From Planctomycetota bacterium (GTDB lineage: Bacteria > Planctomycetota > Phycisphaerae > FEN-1346), in NCBI GenBank assembly GCA_016872895.1, contig VGYT01000003.1, positions 1 to 50,013 of the forward strand: a stretch of DNA of 50,013 nt, given 5' to 3'. Positions 9,855 to 38,872 of the stretch are shown here, one piece after another (position 1 is the stretch's first letter; every line of letters begins with the position of its first letter). Below the pieces are notes generated by a model. The model was not told the origin of the DNA and did no database searches. It worked only from the letters and a program-made list of their open reading frames with translations. The position numbers were made by a program, and so were the translations under genes.

Positions 9855-9927
9855 CCCCACGCACCGCGTGGGGATGGATGGTGCGGGCCGTTTATCCCCC
9901 GGCGGCGCCGGGGGCTTTGAACCATGC
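9855..9927 (+). repeat. Dispersed repeat family 1, copy B (left end missing)
   Basis: The copy contains hairpin 1 (CCCCACGC-ACC-GCGTGGGG, 9855-9873), the linker ggatggtgcgggccg, hairpin 2 (CCCCCGGC-GGC-GCCGGGGG, 9896-9914) and the right terminal repeat TTTGAACCATGC (9916-9927). The left terminal repeat is absent. Its right end fuses directly to the middle of a NifX-like coding sequence. Confidence 0.85.
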
Positions 9928-31951: not shown

Positions 31952-31982
31952 ATGCAGGGGTCCTGGCCGCCGCGAGAAAAGC

Positions 31983-32035
31983 AAGGAGAATGTTGAATAT
32001 TGAATATTCAATATTTCACATTCAACATTCTCCTT
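31983..32035. repeat. AT-rich palindromic repeat, copy 1
   Basis: Outer 16-bp arms (AAGGAGAATGTTGAAT and its complement) flank an inner palindrome ATTGAATATTCAAT. It is strikingly AT-rich in a GC-rich genome. The sulfatase gene ending at 32008 finishes inside it, the repeat encoding the last residues MLNVKY and the stop. A second copy is at 38795-38842. Confidence 0.85.
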
Positions 32036-33615
32036 CTCTTTTCCCCCTGCACGCCGGGGCCGTAAGCGGGGTTGGGCTTCGGGAGGACCGCACCGGAGTC
32101 CTTCAGGAATCCTTCGATGAGGGCATCGAGTTCCTTCACCCGGTCGGGCATCTCGTCGGCGAGGTTGGCGGTCTCGCCGACGTCGGTCTTGAGGTTGTAC
32201 AACTCGTAACGGTGGGCGAAGTTCGGGCCGTCGTGGAAGATGCGGATGAGTTTCCAGTCGCCCTTGCGCACATAGACCGACGGCAGCGCCCCCGTGGCGG
32301 GCGTTGAGTGGGGGAAGAAGCAGAAGATAGCCTCGCGCGGCAGGCGGTCCGCCCCGCGCAGCACGGGCACTATGCTCGTGCCGTCGAACTTCAGCCCTTC
32401 CCTGGCCTTAAGGTCGAGCATGTCGAGGATCGTCGGGTAGAAGTCGATGCTCTGGATAACGGCGTCGCTCTTTGCGCCGGGCTTCACCTGGCCGGGCCAG
32501 ATGACGATGCACGGCACGCGTGTGCCGCCCTCGTAGATCGTGGCCTTCCCGCCGCGGAGGGGGGCGTTGCTCGTGATCGGGATGCGCGTGAGTTCGTCTT
32601 CGTTGCCCGTGCCCTTGTGCCCGGTCCAATGGACGCCGCCGTTATCGGAGAAGAAGACGACGATGGTGCTCTCGGCCAGGCCGAGTTCGTCGAGCGCGTC
32701 GAGGAGGCGCCCGACGGCGTCGTCCATGCTCCGGACCATGGCAGCATAAAGCGCGTTGCGCTGGGGGTTCTTCGGGTCGGCCTTAGTGCGATATTTCTCG
32801 ATATACTCCTTCTTGGCGTCGAACGGCGAGTGGACCGAGAAGCACCAGTAGGTCATGAAGAACCGGCGGTCCTTGTTCTCCTTGAGGAACTTCACGGCCT
32901 CGGCGGCCATGCGGTCTTCGATGTGCTCGCCCGGCGGGCCCGTGAAGTTCAACCTGGCCGGGAACTTCCACGGCGCGATGTAACTTCCGGCGGGGCCGGG
33001 GCCGCCCCAGTGCGGCACGTCCGCGTCGTAACCCTGGTGGAGCGGGTCGTACGGCTCCTGCCCCAGGTGCCACTTGCCGAAGTGGCCCGTGCGGTAGCCG
33101 GCATCGTGCAGGGCCTCGGCCAGGGTGCAGTACTCGTGCTTCAGGCGCGTGGCGCTCGCGCAACTGAGGACCTTCACCTCGGGCGAGCCGCGCTCGCCGA
33201 CGGTTTCCTCGAACTTCTCCTCCGGCAGATGGCAGGCCGGCGCGGTGATGCCGATGCGGGCGGGCCAAAGGCCCGTCTGGATGCTCGCCCGGGTGGGCGA
33301 ACAGAGCGGGTTGGCCGCATAGGCGTTGGTGAACATCATGCCGCGCTTGGCCATGCGCTCGACGTTCGGCGTTTCGTAGAACGTGCTGCCGTAGAGCGAC
33401 GTGTCGCGCCAGCCGAGGTCGTCGGCAAGGATGAAGAGAAGGTTCGGCCTGCTCGCGGGCGGCGCGGCGGCCGCGTCGCCGGGGGGTGCTGTGCTTTCGC
33501 TTGCGAAAGCATGGGCCCGGCGCCCGGCGACCATGCTTTCGCGAAGGCGCGAAAGCATGGCCCCCGCGGCGGCCGCCGCTGCGCCCGCCGCGATGAGAAA
33601 TTCGCGTCGGTCCAC
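32008..33615 (-). CDS. Secreted type I sulfatase A
   Basis: A 535-residue sulfatase (Cys-type, needs formylglycine). GTG 33615 begins [16 protein letters not shown], a Tat signal, 1 nt after the stop of sulfatase B; GGAGG lies 11 nt upstream. Active-site landmarks: [11 protein letters not shown], formylglycine signature [27 protein letters not shown]. The segment after the Tat hydrophobic stretch (about residues 19-45, [20 protein letters not shown]) is encoded by a dispersed hairpin repeat (33492-33560) and has no counterpart in the other sulfatases. The C-terminus is also altered, the last residues coming from the AT-rich repeat. The core domain itself looks intact. Confidence 0.92.
33492..33560 (-). 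repeat. Dispersed twin-hairpin repeat family 2, copy 1, inside sulfatase A
   Basis: Two hairpins: TGCTTTCGC-tt-GCGAAAGCA (33492-33511) and a 13-bp stem CCATGCTTTCGCG-aagg-CGCGAAAGCATGG (33531-33560), separated by a GC-rich spacer. The second copy (38698-38768, opposite orientation) has the same two stems. The repeat is translated in frame in the sulfatase. Confidence 0.88.
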
Positions 33616-35190: not shown

Positions 35191-36693
35191 TCACTGCTTT
35201 CTCTTCGCCTTGGCCTTGGCCGGCTTGTTCGCCTGGCCCTCGACCTTCTCGTCGGAGGCGTCTTCGCCGCGCCCCGACCCCTGGCGCGACTTGGCCTTGA
35301 GTTCCGTTTCCATGCCCTTGTCGCCCTGCTGCGCCATCCAGGCATCGAGTTCGCGGGCGAGGCGGGCCTTGATGTCGGCGAACTTCGGGTCCTCGGCCAG
35401 GTTCTTCATGTCGTACGGGTCGGCCTGGAGGTCGTAGAGTTCCTCGGCGGGCCGGTGCGAGAGCCACTTGACCCATTCGGCCAGCCGCGGGTCTTTCACG
35501 GCATCCTCTTCCCAGGATTTGAAAATGGCCGTGCCGTGGATTCCGGCAATCCAGTACGTGTTGCTCGGCGCAAGGTTGCGAACCAGTTTGTAGCGCCCAT
35601 CGCAGACCGAGCGCATCGGGTACGGCTCCTTGTAGCCGATGATGCCCACGGTGGTGTGCTGCGCGAAGACGTAATCGCGGAGCCTGTCGGCCTTGCCGAG
35701 CAGCACCGCCAGGAAACTGCGGCCGTCGAAGCCGCGGCTGCCGTTGGCGTCGGGGCAGCCGGTGTCGATCTTCGTCGGGTCGGCGCCGGCGGCTTCGAGG
35801 AACGTTGGCGGCACGTCAACGTACTGCATGAGCGCATCGCTGGCGGAGCCGGGCCTGATCTTGCCCGGCCATCGGGCGAATGTGGCGACCCGGATGCCGT
35901 TGTCGTAGAGCGACCACTTGCCGCCGCACGGGAACGAACTGCCTTGCTCGCTCACGAAGAGAACGAGCGTGTTATTGGCCTGGCCGGATTCCTCGACCGC
36001 CTTCAGACACGCGCCCACTTGCGTGTCGAGTTGCGTGATCTCGGCGTAATATTCCGCGAGGTTCTTGCGGGTCACGGCGTTGTCGTGCAGGTACGGCGGG
36101 ATCTTGAGGACGTCGGGCCTGTGAAGGTCCCGCGGACCGCGGGTCCAGGGCGAGTGCGGGTCGTGCGACGCCAAGACCGCCAGCCAGGGCTGCGATCTGT
36201 CGCGCGTGATGAAGGCGGCAAAGGCCTCGGCGTTGTCGGGGCTGGAGTGGATGTACTCCCACGGAAACGTGGCCGGCGGCCCGACGTGCGTCTTGCCCTG
36301 CAAGCCCACGCGGTACCCCAGCGCCTTCAGGTGCGTGAAGATGCTGGCCGTGCCGTCGTAGGCCCGCGTGTGGTTCGGGTACGCGCCGCTTCGGACGGGG
36401 AACAGGCCGGTGTAGAGCGCGTGGCGGCAAGGCGAGCAGGTGGGCGCCGGCGTGTACATGGCGCGCAGCGTCATGCCGTCGCGCGCCAGGCGGTCGATGT
36501 TCGGCGACTTGACGTCGGGGTTGCCCATGCAGCCGAGGTCGTGCAGGTTCAGGTCGTCGGCAATCAGGAGGAGAAAGTTGGGCCGCGCGCCCGTCGGCGC
36601 TGCCGCCCGGGACCACCGCGGGAGCACGAGCGCCGCCGCGCCCACGGCCGCATATCTCAGGAAGTCCCGCCGCTTGACGGTTTGGGCACCCAT
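35191..36693 (-). CDS. Secreted type I sulfatase C
   Basis: A 500-residue sulfatase. ATG 36693 (AAAGGAG upstream) starts MGAQTVKRRDFLRYAAVGAA, a Tat signal. Landmarks: LLLIADDLNLHD, signature TCSPCRHA, LQGKTHVG, SHDPHSPW and VSEQGSSFPCGGKW. It belongs to the sulfatase group with EQG instead of DNG, often called heparan-N-sulfatase-like. A highly charged 45-residue C-terminal tail (KAKSRQGSGRGEDASDEK) may be disordered. Substrate unknown. Confidence 0.9.
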   Translation of the reverse strand: MGAQTVKRRDFLRYAAVGAAALVLPRWSRAAAPTGARPNFLLLIADDLNLHDLGCMGNPDVKSPNIDRLARDGMTLRAMYTPAPTCSPCRHALYTGLFPVRSGAYPNHTRAYDGTASIFTHLKALGYRVGLQGKTHVGPPATFPWEYIHSSPDNAEAFAAFITRDRSQPWLAVLASHDPHSPWTRGPRDLHRPDVLKIPPYLHDNAVTRKNLAEYYAEITQLDTQVGACLKAVEESGQANNTLVLFVSEQGSSFPCGGKWSLYDNGIRVATFARWPGKIRPGSASDALMQYVDVPPTFLEAAGADPTKIDTGCPDANGSRGFDGRSFLAVLLGKADRLRDYVFAQHTTVGIIGYKEPYPMRSVCDGRYKLVRNLAPSNTYWIAGIHGTAIFKSWEEDAVKDPRLAEWVKWLSHRPAEELYDLQADPYDMKNLAEDPKFADIKARLARELDAWMAQQGDKGMETELKAKSRQGSGRGEDASDEKVEGQANKPAKAKAKRKQ

Positions 36694-36737: not shown

Positions 36738-36875
36738 AGTGCTCTGTCATACGTCAACTGAGGGGCGGCATGGTCACCCTGTTGGGTGACCATGTGGCGC
36801 CCTCGGTGCACATGGCCACGCAACAGCGTGGCCATGCCACCCGGCCACTCATCGTTTCACGTTTGACAGAGCACT
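36738..36875. repeat. Twin-hairpin element with 12-bp outer inverted repeats (family 3)
   Basis: Outer arms AGTGCTCTGTCA (36738-36749) and TGACAGAGCACT (36864-36875) are perfect complements. Inside are two 11-bp hairpins: CATGGTCACCC-tgtt-GGGTGACCATG (36769-36794) and CATGGCCACGC-aaca-GCGTGGCCATG (36811-36836). The loops TGTT and AACA are complementary to each other. It fills the gap between sulfatases D and C. Confidence 0.88.
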
Positions 36876-36942: not shown

Positions 36943-38598
36943 TTATTTGCCGGCTGCCGATGGCGCCGCATCGCCGGTGGCCGTGATACGGAACTCCTCC
37001 GCCGCGCGGGTCCAGCGTTCGGCCAGATCCCGGACCTTCTCGGGCTGCTTGTCGGCCAGGTTGCTGGATTCCGAGCGGTCGTAGCGCAGGTCGTAGAGTT
37101 CCCACGGCCCGGCAGCGCCGTCGGCCACGAGTTTCCAGTCGCCCACGCGGATGGCGCGATTGCCCGAGTGGCACCACCAGAGATACTCGTGCGCAACCGC
37201 CCCGTCGCTCGCCAAGGCCGGCACAAGACTTACGCCGGGCGGCGGCGGAACGGGCTTGCCTTCCCACTGCTCCGGCCGGCGGCCGCCGGCCAGTTCCAGC
37301 ATCGTCGGCGCCAGGTCGATGAAGTGGCACACGTCGCGACGCCACTCGCCGCGCGCCCGGATGCCCGCGGGCCAATGGACGATGAGCGGCGACGAAATGC
37401 CCCCCTCGTGCACCCACACCTTGTGGAGCCTGAGCGGCGTGTTGCACGCCGTGGACCAGCCCGGCCCGAGGCAGAGATACGACTTCGCCGAGCCCGGCGT
37501 CGCGGCGGGGTCGTGCCCGTCGCCCCGGATCATCTGTTCGGCGCTGGCCCCGTTGTCGGAGACGAAGAAGAGGACCGTGTTCTCGCAGGCGTTCATCGCC
37601 TTGAGTTGATCCAGGACGCGGCCGATCTCGCGGTCGACGCGGTCGATCATCGCGGCGTGGATGGCCATCTTGGTCGCCTGAAACCGCTTCTGCTCGTCCG
37701 TCAGTTGCTCCCACGGGATCGCCTTCGGGACCTCGCCCGGCCCAATCCGTTTCTGCATGTCTTCCGGCTTGAGGTTCCAGCCGGGTATGCTGTCCGGGTC
37801 GGGCTTCGACAGCGGGCAGTTGATGAGGCCCAACTCGGTCATCCGCTTCCAGCGCTTCTGGCGGATGGCATCCCATCCTTCCAGGTAGCGGTCGCGATAG
37901 CGGTCAATGTCCTCCCGGAGCGCCTGGATGGGGAAGTGCGGCTCGGTAAATGCCAGGTACTGGAAGAAAGGACGGTCCGCGTGATTCTCGGCGTGCTCCT
38001 TGAGGTAACGAATGGCGTGGTCCGCAATGGCCGTGCTCGCGTAATAGCCCTCCTCAGGCTTGATGGGTTGGAGCGGCGGGTCGATTGCCGCCATCTTCCT
38101 GGCCGGCAGAAAGTGATGGTCGCTATCGCTGTACTCAAACGCGCGGTCAAAGCCGCCCTGCTGCGGCGTGCCGTCCACATGCCACTTTCCGGAGTGATAG
38201 GTCCGGTAGCCCAGGGGCTTGAGCATCTCCGGCAACAGCCGCGCCCACGCGGGGCGCTTCCCGCCCGCGCCCCCGGCCAGGCCCGGCATCGCATCGCGGC
38301 GGACCTGCTGCGCATAGTAGCCGGTCAGGATGCAGGCCCGCGAGGGCCAGCACCGGGCCGTGGAGTAGCACTGCGTGAACCGGATGCCGCCGGCCGCAAG
38401 GCGGTCCAGATTGGGCGTGGCAATCTCGCCGCCGTAGCAGCCGGCGTCGGAGAATCCCATGTCATCCATCACGATCACGAGGAAGTTCGGCTTGCGGGAC
38501 GGGGCCGTCCCGGCCGCCGCCCGCAGCGCCCACGACGGCACCGCCACCGCGCACGCCCCAAGGCCGGCGAGTTTCAGAAAGTCGCGCCGCGTGGTCAT
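36943..38598 (-). CDS. Secreted type I sulfatase D
   Basis: A 551-residue sulfatase; ATG 38598 begins MTTRRDFLKLAGLGACAVAV, a Tat signal. Landmarks: LVIVMDDMGFSDAG, signature RCWPSRAC, YHSGKWHVDG, TEPHFP and FVSDNGAS. The layout (DDMGFSD-GCYGGEI-TPNLD) matches arylsulfatase A-like enzymes of marine planctomycetes. The frame runs further right to 38820 through repeat DNA, but only this ATG precedes the signal peptide. Ribosome site weak (AAGGGAATCC). Confidence 0.92.
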   Translation of the reverse strand: MTTRRDFLKLAGLGACAVAVPSWALRAAAGTAPSRKPNFLVIVMDDMGFSDAGCYGGEIATPNLDRLAAGGIRFTQCYSTARCWPSRACILTGYYAQQVRRDAMPGLAGGAGGKRPAWARLLPEMLKPLGYRTYHSGKWHVDGTPQQGGFDRAFEYSDSDHHFLPARKMAAIDPPLQPIKPEEGYYASTAIADHAIRYLKEHAENHADRPFFQYLAFTEPHFPIQALREDIDRYRDRYLEGWDAIRQKRWKRMTELGLINCPLSKPDPDSIPGWNLKPEDMQKRIGPGEVPKAIPWEQLTDEQKRFQATKMAIHAAMIDRVDREIGRVLDQLKAMNACENTVLFFVSDNGASAEQMIRGDGHDPAATPGSAKSYLCLGPGWSTACNTPLRLHKVWVHEGGISSPLIVHWPAGIRARGEWRRDVCHFIDLAPTMLELAGGRRPEQWEGKPVPPPPGVSLVPALASDGAVAHEYLWWCHSGNRAIRVGDWKLVADGAAGPWELYDLRYDRSESSNLADKQPEKVRDLAERWTRAAEEFRITATGDAAPSAAGK

Positions 38599-38697
38599 GG
38601 TTGGATTCCCTTTTTTCGATGATCGTGCTGATTGGCCGGAACCGGCACGCTCCGTTTCGGCATGCGAATCTCGCGGCATCCGCGTCGCCGGAGGGTG

Positions 38698-38768
38698 CCA
38701 TGCTTTCGCGCCTTTGCGAAAGCATGGCCGCCGGCCGCAGGACTCATTCTTTCGCAAGCGAAAGCATG
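38698..38768 (+). repeat. Dispersed twin-hairpin repeat family 2, copy 2
   Basis: Hairpins CCATGCTTTCGC-gccttt-GCGAAAGCATGG (38698-38727) and CTTTCGC-aa-GCGAAAG (38749-38764). It is the inverted counterpart of the copy in sulfatase A, here in the gap between sulfatases E and D. Confidence 0.88.
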
Positions 38769-38794
38769 TCACCGGCCGGGTGCAAAAAGGCAAT

Positions 38795-38842
38795 GAGAAT
38801 GTTGAATATTGAATATTCAATATTTCACATTCAATATTCTCC
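38795..38842. repeat. AT-rich palindromic repeat, copy 2
   Basis: GAGAATGTTGAAT...ATTCAATATTCTC with the same inner palindrome as the copy at 31983. It lies 31 bp beyond the stop of sulfatase E. The two copies differ at one base within the right arm (ACATTC versus ATATTC). Confidence 0.85.
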
Positions 38843-38872
38843 TTGCCGTTTGCCGGCCCACGGCGGCCGGGA

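Follow-up and report, generated by a model that had tools for sequence, protein, structure and literature searches.

The window analysed here, a stretch of 50,013 nucleotides from the genome of a planctomycete, contains two co-oriented sulfatase genes on the reverse strand, located at positions 35191..36693 (PF00884, 5.6e-37) and 36943..38820 (PF00884, 7.8e-53) and separated by a gap of 249 bp. Inside this gap lies a repeat of 138 bp (36738..36875), which has no coding capacity and is found ~45 bp from the start codon of the former gene and ~68 bp from the end of the latter. It is bounded by two outer arms of 12 bp, AGTGCTCTGTCA (36738-36749) and TGACAGAGCACT (36864-36875), which enclose two hairpins with 11-bp stems on the forward strand, namely CATGGTCACCC-TGTT-GGGTGACCATG at 36769..36794 and CATGGCCACGC-AACA-GCGTGGCCATG at 36811..36836. 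As the stem of a perfect hairpin is identical on both strands, its orientation is visible in the loop only; the loops TGTT and AACA thus reveal the second hairpin to be an inverted, diverged copy of the first. The arms, stems and loops had been described in the initial annotation and are confirmed by direct reading of the sequence. They are also far from what is expected by chance: the fold of the 144-nt strand has a z-score of -10.2, with none of 200 shuffles being equally stable, and when the region was shuffled 2000 times with its dinucleotides preserved, a perfect 11-bp hairpin appeared just once and two such hairpins never did.

The 12-bp outer arms turned out to be the tips of longer terminal inverted repeats (TIRs) of ~26 bp (24-26 bp), GTGCTCTGTCRNANGTSAAWTGATGG, and can be extended imperfectly to 37 bp with 76% identity. 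The left TIR, GTGCTCTGTCATACGTCAACTGAGGG (36739..36764, forward strand), agrees with the TIR consensus in 22 of 26 positions and the right TIR, GTGCTCTGTCAAACGTGAAACGATGA (36849..36874, reverse strand), in 23 of 26. At their outer ends, CTA has decayed to CCA and TAG to TCG, which leaves flanks (CA and TC) that are one base off CTA and TAG, and a perfect TA duplication is absent. With the pattern GCTCTGTCRNANGTSAAWTGATGG, allowing up to three mismatches, we found 48 TIR matches in genome G024, 21 in G042, 13 in G004 and 6 in the genome of origin (G000; two in the window, two on contig C252 and one each on C166 and C115), compared with three matches of the reversed control pattern across all 61 genomes. 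In G001, a relative from the same family, the same TIRs bound a complete insertion sequence of ~1.2 kb (locus L213), which is flanked by CTA on the left and TAG on the right and encodes a DDE_3 transposase (E=1.6e-25). They also bound dozens of MITEs in other relatives, mostly between the same flanks, and many of the TIRs in G024 and G042 are paired, 130-270 bp apart, with CTA and TAG on their outer sides.

Insertion of the IS630/Tc1 type takes place at a TA target. Given that TA flanks are found on both sides in 12 and on one side in 5 of 20 TIR pairs, these elements carry the signature of such insertions, and because their TIRs are common to the autonomous IS630 element and to the MITEs of the relatives, we identify the repeat at 36738-36875 as an old MITE. 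The genome of origin harbors a second full-length homolog with both TIRs and core (C252:108-234) as well as two contigs, C166 and C102, on which one TIR each has been retained. Genes for DDE_3 transposases are present in 29 of the 61 genomes, including G001, G004, G005 and G024, and none was found in the assembly of the genome of origin, which is 88.7% complete; such a gene is not strictly needed, since a fossil copy or cross-mobilisation could account for its absence, and the assembly is incomplete. What speaks against the MITE reading, besides this absence, the imperfect TA flanks and a left foot and left hairpin that deviate from the core consensus, is that neither an empty site nor a transposition event was seen among the sequences compared. 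As a side observation, G042 contains near-identical MITEs of 268 bp with the same TIRs and with CTA and TAG flanks (L242-L252), and several contigs terminate within them; no DDE_3 gene was found in this genome either.

Between the TIRs, the two hairpins form a core of 80 bp (36763..36842), an inverted hairpin doublet with a degenerate left foot, GGGGCGGCATG, and an intact right foot, CATGCCACCC. A search of the genome of origin (5.07 Mb in 579 contigs) yielded 49 matches to the target, about a dozen of which follow the same plan, and the consensus of these target-like copies is GGGTGGCATGCCC-hairpin-~20 nt-hairpin-GGGCATGCCACCC. We refer to the wider group with this design as the GGGTGSCATG superfamily. 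Its paired-foot pattern, GGGTGSCATGN{50,80}CATGSCACCC, occurs in 12 of the 61 relatives, with 66 copies in G001, 48 in G049, 38 in G051, 23 in G000, 22 in G004 and 19 in G024, and its reversed control has no match in any of the 61 genomes. Among named genomes, it is found in at least 118 stretches; of the 80 stretches among the matches listed, 78 carry titles of Planctomycetota groups, the other two coming from Hydrogenophaga flava and an unplaced bacterium. Among the matches listed, the one in Hydrogenophaga flava (L350) is the single one assigned outside the Planctomycetota and could be due to chance, transfer or contamination. The genomes used here are mostly fragmented metagenome assemblies, and the loci described here are a sample that was read as stretches of about 1.9 Mb in total.

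What is conserved in this superfamily is shape rather than stem sequence. Both hairpins, each with 9 or more of its 11 pairs formed, are present in 135 of 200 distinct cores with exact feet and in none of 4000 versions with shuffled interiors. Likewise, Watson-Crick pairing reaches about 90% or more at each of stem positions 5-11, with 3-4 pair types per position, although this is the weaker test, as the hairpins in it were chosen for pairing and those in the shuffled-interior test were unselected. Two sets of doublets contain 73 and 81 distinct arm sequences; the hairpin shape is thus maintained through compensatory change, while the arms are diverse. The doublet, not the singlet, is the unit, with 101 paired units as opposed to 45 that are truly solo. 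At least one TIR accompanies 9 of 12 cores in G024 and 3 of 8 in G004, but none of 8 in G001, none of 5 in G049 and none of 5 in G051. Since cores exist both with and without TIRs, the core is a separate repeat that is also carried as MITE cargo. The feet read GTGG in the GGGTGG copies, including the right foot of the target, and GTGC in others; the left foot of the target reads GCGG and, together with the left hairpin, deviates from the usual consensus. Within this superfamily, whose inverted doublets usually come without TIRs, the core of the target is a divergent representative.

That this core is mobile in its own right is suggested by two features, its copy number and its sharp edges. A search for an autonomous parent, in the form of facing hairpin units 160-5000 bp apart, returned 17 pairs with irregular spacing, which by eye are largely adjoining doublets. 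For family D, a regular expression with a fixed arm gave no pairs, because the stems vary, and foot-anchored parsing was used instead. At four loci (L090:7489, L096:15300, L129:3590 and L032:17419), the core hairpins contain a nested repeat, an inserted short palindrome that reads GGCCCGCCGCGGCGGGCAGGC or GCCTGCCGGCCGGCGGGCAGGC. In the literature that we searched for planctomycete palindromic repeats in connection with MITEs, IS630, REPINs and RAYTs, the GGGTGSCATG family is undescribed. The suggestion that the element may represent an undescribed class of planctomycete repeats appears to hold, and the recurring paired-hairpin architecture and its place in a mobile repeat are supported as well.

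The stable fold (z=-10.2), the co-oriented flanking genes and the compensatory changes in the stems are also what one would look for in an intergenic regulatory RNA or terminator that is retained between the sulfatase genes for its function in the host. However, the family is scattered over many unrelated places and genomes, some of its copies have MITE ends, and no Rfam family was matched in a search of the window, so that we regard a host-retained RNA as quite unlikely.

The target is one of several paired-hairpin families in this genome. Two others had been recognised in the initial annotation, family 1 (CCCCACGC-ACC and CCCCCGGC-GGT) and a second one, here family B (CATGCTTTCGC, loops tt and aagg); both occur in the window and are abundant in the genome of origin. 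Family B has two copies in the window, at 33479..33582 and, inverted relative to it, at 38676..38779, and belongs to the same superfamily as the core: its foot is that of the target family in the form GGGTGCCATG. The proposal of three sequence-unrelated families with one architecture is therefore upheld for the architecture, but not for the lack of relatedness, as foot and loop motifs are common to family B and the target family. Family 1 is a highly conserved repeat of ~98 bp with about 20 copies in the sample (e.g. L044:11724-11850, L078:16971-17300 and window positions 9855, 45941 and 48218), and is also found in tandem arrays with a period of 98 bp. A further family, A (e.g. L080:3750), has the foot ATGTGG + CACGGCCGG and the loops CTTGT and ACAAG. 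It may belong to the same superfamily as well, given that locus L214 in G004 combines the foot GGGTGCCACGG and the loop ACAAG inside MITE TIRs.

The complementary loops of the target had been taken to hint at kissing loops needed for function, that is, at an element in which loop-to-loop pairing, as RNA or single-stranded DNA, is under selection. Complementarity is indeed exact in the target copy, and in family A, the loops of 34 of 35 pairs are closer to being complementary, in the inverted sense, than to being identical. Within the GGGTGSCATG family, however, loops are exactly complementary in 8 of 74 doublets and, in a larger set, in 24 of 106, and the loop agreement within elements (0.48 in the 74 doublets) shows no excess over that obtained by re-pairing loops within genomes (0.51, p=0.82). 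Complementary loops in other copies and genomes were the yardstick that the initial annotation itself had set, and by it the kissing-loop reading is largely refuted. Family A shows no loop covariation (p=0.21) and has common C-A mismatches, the loops of family B (CGCCGTTG and CAAG) are not complementary, divergent copies of family 1 have lost their complementarity (e.g. ACC/AGT and GCC/CAT), and many copies in G001 have two recurrent, differing loops, for instance CGCTGTTT and CGTCCGTT in foot-inward reading. For family C, a covariation of loops was obtained (p=0.0005), but it was rejected as evidence for kissing, since subfamilies and both orientations are mixed in this set.

The origin of the complementarity becomes apparent when adjacent hairpins are compared (327 pairs in 1.68 Mb of sequence): where the stems are similar, the loops are more complementary than permuted ones (p=0.001), whereas hairpins with dissimilar stems show no such excess (p=0.27), in permutation tests that, like the others used here, count related copies as independent. 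As complementarity is confined to hairpins that are inverted copies of one another, complementary loops arise as a by-product when a hairpin is duplicated in inverted orientation; they follow from mirroring, and there is no conserved loop-to-loop contact. A selected kissing interaction is thus highly improbable.

The initial annotation further proposed mobilisation by HUH/RAYT transposases. An inverted hairpin doublet with GT[AG]G-like feet and many copies does resemble a BIME or REPIN, in which case the outer arms would be part of the REP unit. REPINs are REP doublets that form hairpins, and their linkage to RAYTs is a defining feature (PMC3116915). The genome of origin has three Y1_Tnp genes, one of which, a gene for a protein of 222 aa on contig C62, is followed directly after its stop codon by a family-B hairpin and preceded by a D-type end; this hairpin seems to be located within the apparent 3' end of the Y1 element itself. 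Yet C62 is the only case with D/B ends nearby among 21 Y1 genes whose flanks were read. Of 29 further Y1 loci, none has the foot motif close to the gene, the single foot observed being located at the outermost end of a locus of 3.3 kb; this amounts to 1 of 50 Y1 genes overall. From the opposite side, neither of two Y1 query proteins has a match in any of the 118 core loci (0.84 Mb). By these counts, a linkage of the family to RAYTs is not supported. Moreover, the outer arms are TIRs of a DDE (IS630) element, and the foot in many family members is GTGC, not GT[AG]G. Mobilisation by a RAYT is therefore unlikely, if less so than a retained RNA. Separately, we noted an IS200-like Y1_Tnp gene on contig C276 (L119:5051-6116), which lies amid three repeats of ~110-145 bp with GTAGCCCCGGCG-type hairpins and resembles a classic GTAG REP system.

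With REPINs (PMC3116915) and BIMEs, the family shares an inverted pair of palindromic units separated by a short spacer, a total length of 70-95 bp, a high copy number and the doublet as the unit; it differs from them in its foot, GGGTGSCATG in place of GTAG/GT[AG]G, although some copies do read GTGG, in that each unit forms a long hairpin and loop by itself, and in that no RAYT linkage was detected. In the part of PMC3733652 considered here, GTAG- and CGTC-tagged palindromic repeats are described that include Planctomycetes and are likewise short stem-loops with a tag, frequently facing in opposite directions, and some RAYT genes are placed between long TIRs without REPs; the target family has neither tag, and this part does not describe a GGGTGSCATG group. 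The structures associated with class 3 TnpAY1 (PMC6006769) are also found in Planctomycetes, and their atypical secondary structure next to a Y1 gene is a further point of agreement, but their foot, CnGA, is not seen in the target family. Finally, the target resembles the MITEs of the IS630/Tc1/mariner group (ISY100, PMC2170065) in having the TIRs of an autonomous DDE_3 element, a TA target within CTAG, as seen in the relatives and presumed for this copy, and a non-coding body in the range of 130-270 bp. Unlike these, it encloses an inverted hairpin doublet, which is also found as an independent repeat, and its TA flanks are decayed.

Taken together, we consider it very likely that the target is an old, non-autonomous MITE of the IS630/Tc1 type, with a separate REPIN-like hairpin doublet as its cargo and with complementary loops as a by-product of mirroring. 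Its TIRs of ~26 bp (GTGCTCTGTC...TGATGG) are those of an autonomous IS630-family element, whose DDE transposase would have moved the copies in trans by a cut-and-paste mechanism. Insertion would have occurred into CTAG with duplication of TA, as seen from the TA flanks in the relatives and presumed for the target, where the flanks are CA and TC. The doublet would have been captured by the MITE, its two inverted hairpins with the outward foot GGGTGSCATG being of the kind found by the hundreds in Planctomycetota, mostly without TIRs. It seems to behave in a REPIN-like manner, with foot and hairpin structure being kept, stems changing compensatorily and halves being mirrored, and may have been moved in trans by an enzyme that recognises single-stranded hairpins. 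The target copy is probably immobile now, given that no DDE_3 gene is present in the assembly of its genome. Once transcribed, it would fold into a stable double hairpin located between the sulfatase genes, which may affect the stability of the sulfatase mRNA or read-through.

More tentatively, GGGTGSCATG doublets could be the phylum-typical palindromic mobile DNA of Planctomycetota, mobilised by a non-RAYT enzyme whose recognition depends on foot, hairpin shape and short loop motifs (GCYGTT or CTTG) and ignores the sequence of the stems, and they could also ride inside IS630 MITEs; we see this as possible rather than probable. In any case, one abundant class of repeats in planctomycete genomes consists of paired hairpins that keep their shape and foot, with stem sequences free to drift, and IS630-type MITEs have taken up such doublets. 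Their study illustrates how a simple control corrects a tempting functional reading, that of kissing loops. For counting such elements in any genome, the GGGTGSCATG foot pattern suffices.

Two further repeats were observed alongside these families. The commonest 14-mer family in the sample from the genome of origin (1.68 Mb), TCAGAGCCGCGACCGTAAGGGAGCGGTGCC, has 91 copies without a long hairpin (e.g. L103:6003) and is located inside family-B hairpins in places (L060:6099 and L092:5591). An AT-rich repeat, AATGTTGAATATTGAATATTCAATATTTCACATTCAACATTC, adjoins the sulfatase genes in the window at 31977-32057 and 38786-38866, and a similar copy is found on contig C62.
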